Assembly (NCBI GenBank): GCA_013003075.1
Contig: JABDLJ010000017.1
Coordinates: 1-64,000 of the forward strand
Direction: 5' to 3'
Source: Paracoccaceae bacterium
GTDB taxonomy: Bacteria > Pseudomonadota > Alphaproteobacteria > Rhodobacterales > Rhodobacteraceae
Length of the DNA stretch: 64,000 nucleotides
The position numbers were made by a program, and so were the translations under genes. The notes beneath the pieces are model-generated. The model was not told the DNA's origin, made no database searches, and saw nothing but the letters and a program-made list of their open reading frames with translations. The first letter of the stretch is position 1. Each line of letters starts with the position of its first letter. Positions 47,095 to 63,302 of this stretch are shown piece after piece.

Positions 47095-49086
47095 TCAGCC
47101 TGACTGCGCGTGGTCCGGCGACGCGGCGTTTGTCGCTTTTAGCAAGGCCTCGGCGGCCGGCAAAGGGCGGCCAAACAGATAGCCCTGCGCCTTGCGGCAG
47201 CCAAGGTTCCTCAGCACCTCGGCCTGCCTGTGCGTCTCGACCCCTTCCACGACCACATCCATGCCGAGACTGTGCGCAAGGTCGATGACCGCATCGATCA
47301 CGAACCTGTTCTGGTCTGAGTTTTCGATCCCGTCGGACAGCGATTTGTCGATCTTCAGCTCGTCCGCCATCATCGCCCTGAGATAAACGAGCGACGAATA
47401 CCCCGTGCCGAAATCGTCGATCGATATCCGGCACCCCAACTCGCGCAAGCCCGACAGGATCTCGCTGACCTGGGTCCAGTCATCAAGCTGAATCGTCTCG
47501 GTTATCTCAAGCGTCAGGGAGGGCGCCGGGCAGCCGGACCGCTTCAGCGCACCGGCAACCTCGGCCACAATGTCATCGGATTTGAAGTTCAGGGCCGACA
47601 GATTCACGCTCAGGCCATAGCTCGTTGCATAGCGCCGGTTCCAGTCGGCGATGCCATCAAGAGCAGCGCGCAGGGCGTAGCGGTCGATATCGGTGACGGT
47701 TCCGCTTTCTTCGGCGAGCCGGATCAGCTCATCCGGCGGCACTTTGCGCGCCTTGTGCTCCCAGCGTACAAGCGCTTCGAACCCGTAAATCGCGCCGCTT
47801 TCCAAAACGACTTTCGGCTGCAGGTAGACCTCAAGCTCTTCGTTTTGGATAGCGTCCGGCAGCGCATCGAGAATGACGCGGCGCTCTGTGAAGGTCTTCT
47901 GCAGCTCGGCATCGAAGAACGAGAAGCTGCCTTTTCCCTGAGTCTTTGCCGCATAAAGCGCGAAATCGGCGAACCGGCAGAGCACCTTGTAGCTGACATC
48001 AAGAATATTGGCGGCCTGGCCCGTCGTCACGATGCCTATGCTGACGCCGGGCGTGACGGTCTTTTGGTCAAACTCAACCAGAAGTGCGCAGTCGCCGACC
48101 AGCCGCGTGGCGAAATCTGCAAGCGCAGCTTCATCTTGCTGCGGCAGGAAAACGGCGAATTCGTCTCCTGACAGGCGCGAGGCAATACCGCCCATTTGGC
48201 GGGTCTGCGCTTCGATGCGCCTTGCCACAGCGACCAGCACGGCGTCGCCCATCGCATGGCCCATCGTGTCGTTGATCCCCTTGAAGTTATCCAAATCGAG
48301 AAACAAAAGCGCGCCGCCTTGGTACGCCTGCAACTTGCTGTGGACGGTTTCGTGGAACTGCACCCGGTTCGGCAGCTCGGTCAGCGGATCGAAATAGGCA
48401 AGGAAATCGGCGCGATTCTCCGCCTGTTCGCGTTGTTGGCGCTCAACGACTTCTCGTCGCAGAAGAAACAACACGCCGGCCCCGCCGATCAGCACCAGCA
48501 ACAAGAACCCCCAAAGAAAGTTTGTCCGCCGATCGAGGGTCGCGCCATGCTCTTCGATCAGATCGTCATCGGATGTCCGCAATGCCTCCAGCAGGTCGAC
48601 AACGGCGACACGCGCGGCCTCCGACAGCACGACAAAGCGTCCTGCGAAAACATTCAGATCGCCAAAGCCACTGGCCGCGGACTGGTCGATGAAATCCACA
48701 AGGGCGCGCAGCGAGCCGATCGCCTTTTCGCCGACATCGCCGATGCCGTCACGGGACAGGCTGTTGTCTATTGTCTAGGCGCGCACGTGTAGGTAATCGC
48801 TCAGCCGGTGCAGCCGGATCTCATTTTCGGAACTCATTGCCCCTTCCCGCAGGGCCTGGATCAAGACGTTCGAGACCCGCTCGACGTCGCTGATCGCGAC
48901 AAAGCCGTTTCGGACCTGCCGTTGCTGCAGTAAATCCTGCCGCTCATGCAGGCGGTCGCTGGTCACTTTCAGATAATAGGCAGCCCCGGCGCATGACATG
49001 CACAGTGCCGCGAGGGCAAACGCAGTGCCAATCCGCGTCGAGACCAGATCGACCGCTTGCAGAAGAGTTGAACGAAGGCGCCCCAT
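47095..49086 (-). pseudogene. GGDEF-EAL membrane protein split by an in-frame TAG
   Basis: One reading frame of 664 codons runs from ATG at 49086 to 47095 but contains a TAG at 48777-48775 (codon 104). Before it: a transmembrane helix (about 20-40) and part of a periplasmic helical sensor ending YLHVRA. After it the same frame resumes TIDNSLSRDGIGDVGEKA, a second membrane helix (about 192-212), a diguanylate cyclase domain with SGDEF (about 306-310) and an EAL phosphodiesterase domain with FEALVRW and the DDFGTGYSSL metal site. Both domains look intact. It is either a recent nonsense mutation, a sequence error, or low-level readthrough; internal initiation at GTG 48699 could still make a truncated protein. 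Confidence 0.85.
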
Positions 49087-49495
49087 ATCAGGCGTACCTC
49101 AGCACTCGGGCGGCAGACCGCTCAGCCAACGGCCCGCTTAGCGCGCGCCGCGCCACGGGGCGCTTTCCGCCGACCTGCCCGGATCTTGCCTGTGCGACCA
49201 TCACACCGCCTTCGACGCCTTCATGATTTATGGCGGCTTATAGGCCGTGACGCTTAAGCTTCTCTTTCGGCAACCCCGCGAAAAGGCCTTTCCAGAAATG
49301 CTGGTAAATACCGCGTTGCAGTCGCACCTTTGAAAAGACGCGGAAATCTGCCGACTGCCGCGTGGCATGTTTCAACCGAACACGGCTGCGTTAACCCACG
49401 AGCCTGTGATTAGCCTGTTATCGCCTCGCTCGCCTACTAACGCTTCATCGCACTACGCGATTTCAGTTATGAACTTTCAGAAGGAAACAAATCCG
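49087..49495 (+). other. Intergenic region upstream of the bufferin-type cluster
   Basis: No gene supported in 409 bases. It must hold the promoter of the bufA-like gene; a strong sigma-70 pair is not evident. An ACGCGG...CCGCGT inverted repeat (49338-49343 with 49358-49363) is the only clear symmetric element. No extracytoplasmic sigma factor or anti-sigma gene is adjacent, unlike some known bufferin loci, so regulation is likely from elsewhere. Confidence 0.35.
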
Positions 49496-49801
49496 ATGTC
49501 CAATCACGCTAAATCTATTGCCGTTGCCGGCGCCGTGGCCGCTGCATTTGCCGCTCAGATGACCGTACCTGCACATGCGCAGGCAAAAGAGAAGTGCTTC
49601 GGCGTTTCGCTTGCCGGAAAGAACGATTGTGCAGCAGGCCCGGGCACAACCTGTGCCGGAACGTCTACAGTTGACTACCAAGGCAACGCCTGGACGCTGG
49701 TCGATGCCGGCACCTGCGCCGAGATCGAACTGCCCGAAATGGCCGACGGCAGCGCGCGCCAAGGCGCGCTTGAGGCGCTGGAACGCGACCTGCCGGCATA
49801 A
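49496..49801 (+). CDS. DUF2282 precursor peptide, bufferin-like (BufA)
   Basis: A 101-residue exported protein of the DUF2282 family. A signal peptide (about 1-30, cleaved near PAHAQA) is followed by a core with Cys34 (EKCFGV), Cys45 (KNDCAAG), Cys53 (TTCAGTS) and Cys74 (AGTCAEI), the spacing of BufA1-type bufferin precursors, whose Cys are modified by the DUF692 enzyme to bind copper. The ATG at 49496 has AGAAGGA upstream and starts the signal peptide. First gene of a four-gene cluster with the modifying enzyme. Confidence 0.87.
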
Positions 49802-49901
49802 CGGGCACGCCGCATTACCGGCCCCAAGGCTGCGTATCACAAGATCTACCAAAGCCCTCCGACGAACTCGCCGGGGGGCGCGCAAGACAGGAACACCGGC
49901 C

Positions 49902-50762
49902 ATGCTCGATGCATCAACCCATGCCTTTGACCGCCTGCCGAACGCGGTGGGAGTTGGCTATAAACCCCAGCATTTTCGGGATATTCTGGCTGATCCCGCA
50001 CCCGTTGAATGGCTGGAGATCCACGCGGAGAACTACATGGGCGACGGAGGCCGGCCTTTGGCGCAGCTGCGCCACCTGTCAGAGCGCTTCGCAATATCGG
50101 TTCATGGGGTTGGCTTGTCGATCGGCGGCGAAGGGCCGTTGGACACCGAGCATCTGGCCCGCCTGAAACATCTTGTCGGCTGGCTGAACCCGGCCAGTTT
50201 TTCCGAGCATCTGGCTTGGTCCACCCATGACAGCGGCTTTCTGAACGATCTTCTGCCGCTGCCCTACACCGAAGCAACGCTCGCCCGGGTCGCGGCCCAT
50301 ATCGATCAGGTGCAGGACACAGTTGGGCGGCGGATGCTGCTTGAGAACCCCTCGACATATCTGGCCTTCGACGAAAGCGAGATGTCCGAGATCGAATTTC
50401 TGGACGATATCACGCGCCGCACCGGCTGCGGGTTGCTGCTGGATGTAAACAACGTATTTGTCTCGGCGACCAACCAGAACACCGACCCGGTCAGCTACAT
50501 AGAGGCCTTCCCGATCCAGAAGGTTGGCGAAATTCATCTGGGCGGACATGACGAAGACGAGGACGAAACCGGCGCGCCCCTCTTGATCGACAGTCATGGC
50601 CGCGAAGTCGTGGATCCGGTCTGGACGCTCTACGCACACACCATTGCGCGCGGCGGTCCACGGCCGACCCTGATCGAATGGGACAATGACGTGCCGGATT
50701 GGCAGGCCTTGGCCGCCGAGGCGCGCCGTGCGGCCGATACCCTGGCCCCGGCTCTGGTATGA
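49902..50762 (+). CDS. DUF692 multinuclear iron oxidative enzyme (BufB-like)
   Basis: A 286-residue MNIO (DUF692) enzyme, the family of MbnB that rewrites cysteines of RiPP precursors. The TIM-barrel shows the conserved metal ligands: His68 (VHGVGLS), Glu102-His103 (FSEHLAW), Glu149 (LLENPSTY), Asp181/Asn183 ([11 protein letters not shown]), His212 and His216 (EIHLGGH), His232 (DSHGR) and Glu259 (IEWDND). It should oxidise Cys residues of the DUF2282 peptide encoded just upstream. The ATG at 49902 is the family start. It is coupled to the next gene by ATGA. Confidence 0.93.
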
Positions 50763-51520
50763 GCGGGCACCCGGTCAGCCAGGGCGCTTTCACTGCGGCG
50801 CTTCTGTCGCCGGACTTGCCGGTTCCCGAAGGCCTGAGCAACCCCGACGGCGGCCCGGCCACCAAGCGGTTCGACGTCTACCGCAACAACGTGATCGTCA
50901 GCCTGACCGACGCGCTGAAAACAGGCTTTCCGGTGACCCTGAAGCTTTTGGGAGAGACGTTCTTCACCGCCATGGCAGGCGTATATGTTCGCCAGCACCC
51001 GCCGCAATCACCCCTGATGATGTTCTATGGTGCCGAGATGCCAGGCTTCCTGGAAGGGTTCGAGCCGGTCGGCAAACTGGGCTATCTGCCAGATATCGCG
51101 CGCCTGGAACTTGCGCTGCGCGAAGCCTACCACGCCGCCGATGCCGCGCCGCTCGATCCCGCGGCGTTGCAGGCGCTTGACCCCGAACAACTCGTGGCAA
51201 GCCGCCCGCGTCTGGCGCCCGCCGTTCGCGTCCTGAGATCGCGCTGGCCGATCCACGCGCTCTGGCGCTTCAACATGGCCGAGGGCGCGCCCAAGCCGCA
51301 AATGGCGTCAGAGGACGTTCTGATCAGCCGCGCCGAGTTCGACCCCGAGATCACGCGGCTTGCCCCCGGCGCGGCCGCGTTTTTCGAAAGCCTCGCCCAG
51401 GACGCGAGCCTCGGCGATGCGGTCGACGCCGCCACCGCAGAGGCGACCGATTTCGACCTGACAACCACCCTCGGCATCGCGCTTTCCAGCGGCGCCCTGA
51501 CAGAACTGAGAGCCCCCTGA
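50759..51520 (+). CDS. DUF2063 partner protein (BufC-like)
   Basis: A 253-residue protein with the N-terminal DUF2063 domain: [20 protein letters not shown] then [20 protein letters not shown] and [20 protein letters not shown]. In MNIO systems such a protein binds the precursor leader and delivers it to the DUF692 enzyme, as MbnC does for MbnB. The ATG at 50759 overlaps the bufB-like stop, and its stop overlaps the DoxX gene start, so the whole unit is tightly coupled. Confidence 0.9.
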
Positions 51521-52068
51521 TGATCGCCCTTGCCAATCTTCACAGCGCCATCTTCACTCGGATCGAAGCCTTTGCGCCCGTCCTGATCCCGACGCTGGCC
51601 CGAGTGGTCTTTGCCGGAACGCTCTTTGTCTACTACTGGAATTCGGCGCTGACCAAATTCGGAGACGGCGCAGCGGGGCTCTTGCAGCCGTCCGCCGGCG
51701 CCTATATCCAGATCTTCCCCAAGGCGGTTGAGGCCGCCGGCTACGATGTCTCGCAGCTTTCGGCCCTTCACACCCTTATCGTGATCGCCGGCACTTGGGC
51801 CGAGGTGCTTTTGCCAATCCTGATCGTGGTGGGGCTTCTGACCCGCCTTGCGGCACTTGGAATGATCGGTTTCGTGATCGTACAAAGCATCGTCGACATC
51901 ACCGGCCACGGGCTGGGCGCAGCCGACATAGGGGCATGGTTCGACGGCCTGCCCTCGGCACTGATCCTCGACCAGCGCGCATTCTGGCTGTTCCTGCTGC
52001 TGGTATTGGTGCTGCGCGGTGCGGGGCCTTTATCGCTGGACCGGCTTCTCTCTAGAAGTGCGACTTAG
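51520..52068 (+). CDS. DoxX-family membrane protein (BufD-like)
   Basis: A 182-residue inner-membrane protein with four helices of the DoxX type (about 22-42, 75-90, 97-118 and 146-162), including RVVFAGTLFVYYWNSALTKF and AEVLLPILIVVGLLTRLAAL. DoxX proteins often close MNIO/bufferin operons and may act in redox or export. It begins TGATG with the DUF2063 stop. The 3' end overlaps the convergent membrane-protein gene by 17 bases. Confidence 0.87.
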   Translation: MIALANLHSAIFTRIEAFAPVLIPTLARVVFAGTLFVYYWNSALTKFGDGAAGLLQPSAGAYIQIFPKAVEAAGYDVSQLSALHTLIVIAGTWAEVLLPILIVVGLLTRLAALGMIGFVIVQSIVDITGHGLGAADIGAWFDGLPSALILDQRAFWLFLLLVLVLRGAGPLSLDRLLSRSAT

Positions 52069-52423
52069 GCTCGTCAGGCCGTCCCGCCGCAATCGCAAGA
52101 ATACCGCCCAAGGCGCAGAAAGCCATTGGAAACACGGTGAAAACGCTGAAGCCGAAGGCCCAGTAGACACCGGCCGTCGAGGCCAACATCAGAACTCCGC
52201 CCCAAAGGGCCCGGTACCGGGCCATCGCGCCGCCGGCAATGCCCAAAAGCGGCGCGACCACGGCCATTGTGCGAATAAAACCGACATTGTCGACTTGCCG
52301 CAAAACCTCGGGCAGATGCTCTCCCCAACGGTCCACGGCCTCGGTATAGCCAAAGCTGAAGAAGCCCACGATCAGGGCTAGGCAGCCACCCAGAATTCCA
52401 AGAACAGTTGCCGCGTTTCGCAT
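52052..52423 (-). CDS. Four-helix membrane protein, unknown
   Basis: A 123-residue membrane protein with four hydrophobic stretches (about 4-25, 52-69, 74-86 and 90-112). It begins MRNAATVLGILGGCLALIVG and has GYTEAVDRWGEHLPEVL in the first loop. The pattern recalls DUF4064-like membrane proteins but the match is not firm. It converges on the DoxX gene with a 17-base overlap, so it is unlikely to belong to the same transcript. Function unknown. Confidence 0.7.
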   Translation of the reverse strand: MRNAATVLGILGGCLALIVGFFSFGYTEAVDRWGEHLPEVLRQVDNVGFIRTMAVVAPLLGIAGGAMARYRALWGGVLMLASTAGVYWAFGFSVFTVFPMAFCALGGILAIAAGRPDEPKSHF

Positions 52424-52464
52424 GAGGAGCGTTCCTTTTTGCTTTTGCTTATGTAGACAAAGGC

Positions 52465-52794
52465 TTAGCGATTTCCAAGAAGAGCTGACCTTACGTCGGG
52501 CGTCCAGCCCAGATAGAGCGTGCCGCCAGCCTCGATCACCGGGCGTTTCATCAGCGCAGGCTTGCTTGCAAGCGCGTCCAGCGGGGTCGCCGAGCGCGCG
52601 GCATCATCCATCGACCGCCACGTGGCCGAGCGCCGGTTGACCAAAGCCTCGCCGAACGCATCCAGAAACGCAGCAAGCCGGTCGCGGGGCAGCGGCGATG
52701 CCCGTACATCGACGAATTCCACTTCATTTCCGTCACTTAGCGCCTTCACAGCTGCCCGGCACGTATCGCAATTCTTCAATCCGTAGACAATCAT
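52465..52794 (-). CDS. ArsC/Spx-family thioredoxin-fold protein
   Basis: A 109-residue protein of the arsenate-reductase-like (ArsC/YffB/Spx) family: MIVYGLKNCDTCRAAVKAL with a CxxC motif (Cys9, Cys12), a charged middle and the substrate-binding LMKRPVIEAGG. Arsenate reduction is one possibility, but many YffB-type members have other thiol roles, and no ars genes lie nearby. It is divergent from the cold-shock gene. Confidence 0.85.
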   Translation of the reverse strand: MIVYGLKNCDTCRAAVKALSDGNEVEFVDVRASPLPRDRLAAFLDAFGEALVNRRSATWRSMDDAARSATPLDALASKPALMKRPVIEAGGTLYLGWTPDVRSALLGNR

Positions 52795-61862: not shown

Positions 61863-61997
61863 ACGCTTCGGCCGATCTTCGCCTGCCCCGATCTGCCGCG
61901 ACAGGCAGGGTCTTGCGCAGTGCGCGTTGTGACGCAGTTGTCAGCACTTGCAGGCGCGCTTAGGTGTGGTGCGATCAAAGTTCGAAGGAGCTCTTTT

Positions 61998-63302
61998 GTG
62001 AAACGCCGAAGTTTCCTGGCCGCCACTGGCGCGGCCCTTCTTGCCCCGCGTGTCAGCTTTGCCAGCAGCACGGTGCTAAGCGCCGGGCCGGTGGTTGCGC
62101 AGATCCTGCCCGAAGGCGACGGGACCACGGCGACTTGGGGGCTGAATGGCTCGACCCCCGGGCCGGCGTTGCGATTGGCGCAGGGCGAGCGGGCCGAGAT
62201 CACCTTCGAGAACGGACTGATGCAACCCTCGGCGCTGCACTGGCACGGCATCCGGCTGGAAAACGCGATGGACGGGGTGCCCGGGCTGACCCAGGACGCG
62301 GTGCCGCCGGGTGGCCGCTTCGACTACAGCTTTGTCCCGCCCGATGCCGGAACCTACTGGTATCATTCGCATAACCGGTCATGGGAGCAGGTGGCGCGCG
62401 GCATCTACGGGCCACTGATCGTCGAAGAGACGACGCCGCCGGATGTCGATCACGACGTGATCGTGATGGTGGATGACTGGCGGCTGAGCGAGACCGGCGA
62501 GCAGTTGGGGGGCTACGACGACCTGCACGACCGGGCCCATGCCGGGCGGATGGGAAACTACGCTCGGGCGCTCGTCGATCCCGCCGTGCAGTTACGCCAG
62601 GGCGAACGGGTGCGGCTGCGGCTGATCAACGTCGCCACCGACCGGGTCTTCCCGGTGCAGATAGACGGGATCAAGGGCCGCATCGTCGCGCTGGACGGGA
62701 TGCCCCTGCCCGCGCCCGCCCCGATCGGCGATATCCTGCTGGCGCCGGCGCAGCGCATCGACATCATCGCGGACGTGACCGGCGCCGAACAGCTTGGCTT
62801 TGTATTTCCGACCCGCGATGGGCCTTACGATCTGGGCGCGATCCCGGTCTCAGGCGTGCGCAGCGGTCCGGCGCGGGGCGATATCGCGGCGCTGCCGGGC
62901 AATCCGGGCCACAGCCTCGATCTGGAGGCGGCGAGCGAGGTTCCGCTGCGCATGGAGGGCGGCGCGATGGGCGGGCGGCACTCCGGCAGCGATGTCTGGG
63001 CGTTCAACGGCGTCTCGGACCTTCTGGAGGCGCCGCTGCGACGCTTTGAGCGGGGCGAGACGGCGCGCTTCAGACTGGTCAACGACACCCGCTGGGCGCA
63101 TGGCATCCACCTGCACGGGCATCATTTCCACGAACTGGGCCCGGACGGCGCGCCGGGCGCGCTGCGCGACACCACGCTGGTCGAGCCGGGCGCCAGCATC
63201 GAGATTGCCGCCGTGATGGACAATCCCGGAAAGTGGCTTTTGCATTGCCACATGCTGGGCCACCAGGCGGCGGGGATGCGCACCTGGGTCGAAGTGGCCT
63301 AG
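61998..63302 (+). CDS. Multicopper oxidase, Tat-exported
   Basis: A 434-residue multicopper oxidase. The start GTG at 61998 has AAGGAG seven bases upstream and gives a Tat signal MKRRSFLAATGAALLA. Copper ligand blocks: HWHG at 81-84, YHSH at about 122-125, HGIHLHGHHFHEL, and the C-terminal HCHMLGHQAAGM with the axial Met of type 1 copper. Family members include copper-detoxifying cuprous oxidases and laccase-like enzymes; no copper-resistance neighbours are nearby, so the substrate is open. The signal and ligands are complete. Confidence 0.93.
   Translation: MKRRSFLAATGAALLAPRVSFASSTVLSAGPVVAQILPEGDGTTATWGLNGSTPGPALRLAQGERAEITFENGLMQPSALHWHGIRLENAMDGVPGLTQDAVPPGGRFDYSFVPPDAGTYWYHSHNRSWEQVARGIYGPLIVEETTPPDVDHDVIVMVDDWRLSETGEQLGGYDDLHDRAHAGRMGNYARALVDPAVQLRQGERVRLRLINVATDRVFPVQIDGIKGRIVALDGMPLPAPAPIGDILLAPAQRIDIIADVTGAEQLGFVFPTRDGPYDLGAIPVSGVRSGPARGDIAALPGNPGHSLDLEAASEVPLRMEGGAMGGRHSGSDVWAFNGVSDLLEAPLRRFERGETARFRLVNDTRWAHGIHLHGHHFHELGPDGAPGALRDTTLVEPGASIEIAAVMDNPGKWLLHCHMLGHQAAGMRTWVEVA

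Follow-up and report, generated by a model that had tools for sequence, protein, structure and literature searches.

Bufferins are copper-binding RiPPs that form a large class, described in recent years; in the cited parts of this literature their regulators are ECF sigma factors. A close counterpart of the locus considered here is the Buf1 operon of Caulobacter vibrioides (CC3254-CC3257), which agrees with it in all four gene families and in their order and has a DUF2282 precursor with four Cys (PMC3511200, PMC12452194), and the bufferin operons of this bacterium possess the SigF promoter GTAACC-N16-CGAA (PMC3511200). In other Buf1 bufferins BufB and BufC turn the central Cys into thiooxazoles, as described for the Caulobacter homologue, a disulphide links the first Cys to the last, and the exported peptide binds copper (PMC12452194). 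The same source gives preliminary results for a Sec signal peptide that doubles as the leader, and this is also stated by the title of Junger et al. 2026, a reference in PMC13419390.

Another related system is the operon SMb20530-20527 of Sinorhizobium meliloti, which unites DUF692 and DUF2063 genes and is controlled by RpoE7 from the promoter TGTAACA-N16-CGAAT, the spacing being counted in this analysis (PMC6180224). The HvfABCX/oxazolin clusters of Haemophilus also combine an MNIO enzyme, a DUF2063-type partner, a membrane protein and an exported Cys precursor. Outside the bufferins, the response regulators CusR and CopR bind TGACA-N4-TGTCA inverted repeats (PMC12428095), and CusR is reported to have very few target sites per genome (PMC12428095, PMC11195947).

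The bufferin cluster and its predicted product

In the window, i.e. the whole stretch of 64,000 nucleotides that was analysed (a Paracoccaceae bacterium, contig JABDLJ010000017.1), the segment 49496-52068 is, judged by its sequence, a Buf1 bufferin cluster with canonical gene order, to which a copper function is assigned by homology alone. The four genes which an earlier note had read in this segment were confirmed, all on the forward strand: bufA (49496-49801, 101 aa), the DUF2282 (Buf1) precursor (PF10048, E=4.7e-24); bufB (49902-50762), the MNIO (DUF692) bufferin maturase (PF05114, E=5.9e-106); bufC (50759-51520), a DUF2063 (PME-type 1) partner protein (PF09836, E=1.9e-26); and bufD (51520-52068), a DoxX-family membrane protein (PF07681, 25.9 bits with a cut-off of 23.6). 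The ATG of bufC overlaps the bufB stop codon (ATGA), and bufC and bufD likewise overlap at their stop and start codons. A hairpin between bufA and bufB was considered and rejected (fold z -0.72, not notable), no riboswitch or RNA of another known class was found by Rfam search of 48700-52500, and the PDB sequence search with bufC gave none at E<=0.01. The bufferin-type layout proposed in the earlier note is supported by the precursor family and its Cys pattern, the BufB equivalog, the invariant candidate ligand motifs, the DUF2063 partner, the DoxX protein and the gene order. The HvfB, HvfC and HvfX models match the window proteins below their cut-offs (HvfC versus bufC, E=3.4e-13), and the Hvf precursor, unlike the window BufA, has EGKCG repeats. 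The cluster itself is a further member of an already known kind, and its promoter arrangement is a variant absent from the literature searched.

The four Cys contexts of the precursor, EKC-FG, KNDC, TTCAGT and AGTC, had been read correctly, and all four Cys are at 1.00 in an 84-row precursor alignment. The N-terminus is signal-peptide-like: by eye it has a charged start, an Ala-rich hydrophobic stretch and an A-H-A site, and these are kept in relatives. The tail after the last Cys (49718-49801; loci L033-L112) follows an RxGSLExLxRDLPA-like pattern common to Rhodobacteraceae precursors, where R, G, R and D are at 1.00 and one L at 0.99 (84 rows), while outside the family it is mostly reduced to "GSL". 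This conserved tail is a possible lineage-specific recognition element (follower). Two bufA copies in tandem occur in L024, L039, L064 and L066, and two DUF2282 matches were also found in G007 and G100.

BufB scores 381.5 bits against NF050167 MNIO_BufB ("MNIO family bufferin maturase"; cut-off 310), and its sequence can be aligned with PDB 3bww (E=2.9e-46) and with MbnB chains. The residues H68, E102/H103, E148, D181/N183/N184, H212/H216, D230/H232 and E259/D261 do not vary across 79 MNIO rows, and we take the metal ligands to lie among them. The candidate metal-ligand motifs HG, SEH, EN, LDVNN, IHLGGH, DSHG and EWD align to 3bww and partly to the MbnB chains; a DUF692 protein devoid of metal ligands had been named in the earlier note as an argument against the function, and these motifs proved to be invariant in the 79 rows. 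The D230/H232 pair forms a DxH motif like D242/H244 of HvfB, a likeness judged by motif and without alignment; in the cited part of the HvfB study N175, D242 and H244 are predicted third-iron ligands (PMC13419390).

From homology with other Buf1 bufferins we infer the thiooxazole chemistry and the copper binding of the window BufA: the iron-dependent MNIO BufB together with BufC would oxidise the two central Cys, and the mature peptide would be exported via Sec and then chelate excess copper. It is rather unlikely that the mature product protects mainly against another stress, i.e. gold, chromium, cadmium or a DoxX-linked oxidative or sulphur stress. Such a role is suggested by the response of Caulobacter SigF to chromium and cadmium (PMC3511200), by the homologous GIG operon, which responds to gold and copper (PMC5413113), and by other metals raised in the discussion of PMC12452194; however, according to the latter source Caulobacter Buf1 binds copper via thiooxazoles formed from its Cys and helps growth when copper is in excess.

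In the same family (Rhodobacteraceae-type, with a single genome for each genus) 106 of 149 genomes contain DUF2282, and so do 65 of 190 taken from the class. Ranked by MNIO sequence, the 80 closest named loci carry Rhodobacteraceae-type genus or family labels, except for one each labelled Rhodobacterales, Alphaproteobacteria and Proteobacteria only; their genera are taken to belong to Rhodobacteraceae. The upstream neighbour, which from its sequence we take to be thrS, is present in 77 of 81 loci (the 80 nearest and the window), a figure biased upwards by the choice of nearest relatives. On the reverse strand downstream are an ArsC-family gene (52465-52794), with counterparts near the operon in 70 of the 81 loci, and a small membrane protein gene (52052-52423), with counterparts in 51. 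The thrS and ArsC-like neighbours suggest a stable chromosomal place of the bufferin locus in the family. The multicopper oxidase reported about 10 kb away in the operon neighbourhood was also confirmed (61920-63302). A GGDEF-EAL gene (47095-49086, reverse strand) is split by one in-frame stop, which points to a pseudogene, a mutation of recent date or an error in the sequence.

Operator and promoter before bufA

The motif search in 90 non-redundant bufA upstream regions of the family resulted in the 40-bp pattern TnACrsnnnyGTGnnnCACrssnnyGTGAnTnGnnnnnnn. In 73 aligned upstream regions the half-site positions A18, C19, G26, T27 and A29 reach 0.99 identity, and T1 and A3 reach 0.85 and 0.88, respectively; further elements are T.AC (position -9), a weak GTNA (37-40) and TAnnnT, which resembles a -10 (55-60). 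Of the 149 family genomes 49 contain the strict tandem operator TNACRNNNNYGTGNNNCACRNNNNYGTGA, and none matches the reversed-pattern control. In the loci read it lies nearly always 190-267 bp upstream of the first bufA Cys codon, with the exceptions L092 and L113, where it is 294 bp after this codon.

The window has a conserved operator and promoter of this kind at 49368-49440, upstream of bufA, which the first reading had missed; all its elements are on the forward strand. An upstream outer half-site TGTTTCA (49368-49374) is located at the place of the conserved T.AC and is followed by the first palindrome ACACG-GCTG-CGTTA (49380-49393; TNACG-N4-CGTGA in relatives) and the second palindrome CCACG-AGCC-TGTGA (49396-49409), both palindromes being indicated by the motif search, the alignment and a profile match. 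Then a downstream outer half-site TGTTA (49416-49420) is found near the place of the GTAAC -35 of SigF-type relatives, and column conservation points to a sigma70-like -10 TACTAA (49435-49440; TAnnnT in relatives). Transcription would start from a sigma70-type promoter with a weak -35, preceded by the tandem palindromic operator. A hairpin ATCGC-ACTAC-GCGAT (49447-49461, forward strand) lies where the bufA mRNA is predicted to begin and is possibly a 5' stabiliser; in the window and 62 relatives the sequence varies and the pairing is kept, with a mean fold z of -1.37 (63 sequences including the window) versus -0.34 in a control stretch (64 sequences).

The window operator is a weaker variant, in which the first palindrome is shifted by 1 bp and contains GTTA for GTGA, the palindrome-to-palindrome spacing is 16 bp versus 15 bp in most relatives, and both palindromes deviate from TNACR-N4-YGTNA at the first base. 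Its PWM score of 19.3 bits is just below the 20-bit threshold, and the strict tandem pattern has no match in the window even with 3 mismatches. Profile R1, a sequence-only profile built from 61 upstream regions with the window excluded, ranked 49374-49437 (20.2 bits, E=0.0012) first among the sites listed for the genome of the window. Three single operator boxes occur elsewhere in the window (40659, 55198 and 61930).

R1 was run against all 149 genomes in full, and the matches listed at E<1e-4 were all at the bufA locus, under the stricter Infernal filters, by which weak sites elsewhere may have been lost. According to these data the operator is almost exclusive to bufA genome-wide. The lone case of a strict operator in a genome with no DUF2282 match (G112; L114, 1501-1529) is flanked by L,D-transpeptidase-like and semialdehyde dehydrogenase-like ORFs, named by eye.

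Candidate regulators of the operator

Judged at the sequence level, the operator geometry TNACR-N4-YGTNA is the same as that of the CusR/CopR box, and such inverted repeats upstream of the promoter, as in CusR/CopR operons, are present as a family-wide pattern. The CusR/CopR operators of E. coli and Pseudomonas are also similar in combining an inverted repeat with multiple half-sites (PMC12428095, PMC11195947), whereas the half-site here is TNACG/CGTNA with two palindromes in tandem, compared with TGACA-N4-TGTCA. An activator of the CusR/CopR (OmpR) response-regulator type is most likely to bind the operator and would be the best supported candidate, though not an established one.

Of the 149 genomes, each with 18 candidates scored, 43 contain CopR-like regulators (TIGR01387, E<=1e-62), none of these being above the family cut-off. 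Their presence across the 149 genomes does not track the operator, and no regulator was tied to it; the CopR-like response regulators of this survey were set aside as its binder, since their occurrence does not follow that of the operator. Upstream of the regulator genes themselves 3 boxes were found against 0.34 expected, two of them in one genome; this count covers 20 of 30 genes, the 10 loci whose start was not located being left out. The best TIGR01387 match of the window genome reaches 245.9 bits (cut-off 279.2) and adjoins genes for a DegP-like protease and a histidine kinase, as named by eye.

A Crp/Fnr-type site is also a 14-bp 5-4-5 inverted repeat. The TNACG-N4-CGTNA geometry alone does not single out the OmpR type, and together with the failure of CopR-like regulators to track the operator this leaves some room for a real bufferin cluster whose operator is bound by another regulator, for example a Crp/Fnr-type protein or a metal-released repressor. 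We regard this as unlikely, although it deserves consideration: the six half-sites in one array, with only 15 bp from palindrome to palindrome and 10-11 bp to the outer half-sites, would fit a multimeric response regulator better than two Crp-type dimers, and the place just upstream of a weak -35 would suit an activator.

SigF-NrsF and a probable change of promoter

The earlier note had found no ECF sigma factor pair adjacent and suggested that regulation may differ, which was borne out: the Caulobacter-type SigF promoter was sought before the window bufA with GTAA[CT]-N16-18-CG[AT]A and gave no match, and the conserved tandem operator is present instead. Caulobacter has SigF-NrsF and GTAACC-N16-CGAA; neither was found here, where they are replaced by the tandem palindromes and a sigma70-like -10. 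Likewise the S. meliloti operon is ECF-driven, with a promoter as in the SigF-type relatives of the family (PMC6180224), while the window promoter is not. No NrsF (negative regulator of SigF) was found in the genome of the window, but this genome is 65% complete and NrsF could be in the missing part; the operon is probably without SigF-NrsF drive in this bacterium.

Across the family NrsF was detected in 22 of 149 genomes, two of these being weak. The relation between NrsF and promoter type was examined in 103 genomes, i.e. the 106 with DUF2282 minus the window's own, G098 (match at a contig start) and G130 (precursor not located; this genome has NrsF), with G118 (34.9 bits, partial) and G129 (below the cut-off, two stops) counted as NrsF-negative. 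The SigF-type promoter GTAA[CT]-N16-18-CG[AT]A precedes bufA in 12 of 14 NrsF-positive and 0 of 89 NrsF-negative genomes, while the tandem operator (PWM at least 20 bits) precedes it in 0 of 14 and 73 of 89, respectively; 16 of the 89 match neither promoter type. The genomes are related, and the Fisher values for this exclusion are therefore too small. The PWM was trained on 90 upstream regions, among them that of the window and those from as many as 30 of the 103 tested genomes. In the 73 genomes outside the training set L003-L032, some of which are possibly of the same species as named loci used in training, the operator was found in 0 of 6 NrsF-positive versus 54 of 67 NrsF-negative genomes and the SigF-type promoter in 5 of 6 versus 0 of 67. 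Even with all 22 NrsF genomes counted as positive, none of them has the strict operator pattern. Thus, the operator and NrsF are mutually exclusive across the family genomes.

Of the 81 named loci 76 were classified by promoter. All five with an NrsF ORF in the stretch have a SigF-type promoter, and the operator score is at least 20 bits in 62 of the 76; 4 of 76 match the loose SigF pattern and have no NrsF in the stretch, and three of these (Ruegeria) carry the tandem operator too. In the four NrsF loci with thrS the distance from the thrS end to the bufA ORF is 1256-1427 bp with nrsF between, versus a median of 225 bp (range -119 to 2379) in 73 other loci; the thrS-bufA stretch with nrsF seen in SigF-type loci is missing from most operator-type loci. 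The simplest reading, based on nrsF and the stretch length, is a loss of sigF-nrsF between thrS and bufA together with a promoter change. Outside the family 11 of 28 inspected DUF2282 loci show GTAA[CT]-N16-18-CG[AT]A, which supports, without proving, the SigF-type promoter as the older state; on this basis we infer the direction of the evolutionary change, in which the present arrangement most likely replaced an ancestral SigF promoter in Rhodobacteraceae upon loss of the sigF-nrsF stretch.

The SigF-type promoters of the family contain a single box CAC-N5-YGYG 4-7 bp before GTAAC in 9 of 12 cases, against 0.022 expected from shuffled sequences, and a similar box was seen by eye before GTAAC in all five named SigF-type loci and, outside the family, in L283 and L286. 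As this box is common to SigF-type promoters, the activator may be older than the promoter change. The box also bears on the view that the tandem array is a phylogenetic by-product, carried over neutrally in a related set, and not a functional operator. All sequences belong to a single family, which speaks for this view, but the genomes were sampled one per genus, the core half-sites keep up to 0.99 identity while the flanks differ freely (73 upstream regions), and the matching single box precedes the SigF -35 in the NrsF genomes far above the shuffled expectation; neutral carry-over is thus very improbable.

The overall account is probable: bufABCD would encode a periplasmic copper-buffering RiPP, and a sigma70 promoter with a tandem operator, likely served by a CusR/CopR-type activator, would have replaced the SigF promoter. 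More tentatively, and with somewhat more doubt than confidence, it can be considered that bufA control was rewired in Rhodobacteraceae, the lost SigF-NrsF being offset by doubling of a pre-existing activator box and by an ECF-to-sigma70 promoter change, which would give a copper-type two-component regulator with the bufferin operon as its only strong target.

In the literature searched, with most subscription journals outside it, no paper was found that deals with this operator or with how Rhodobacteraceae regulate their bufferins. The near-bufA-specific operator that excludes SigF-NrsF provides a handle on bufferin control in most genera of a major marine family, and the bufferin locus serves as a worked example of a likely replacement of regulation at a fixed position linked to thrS.
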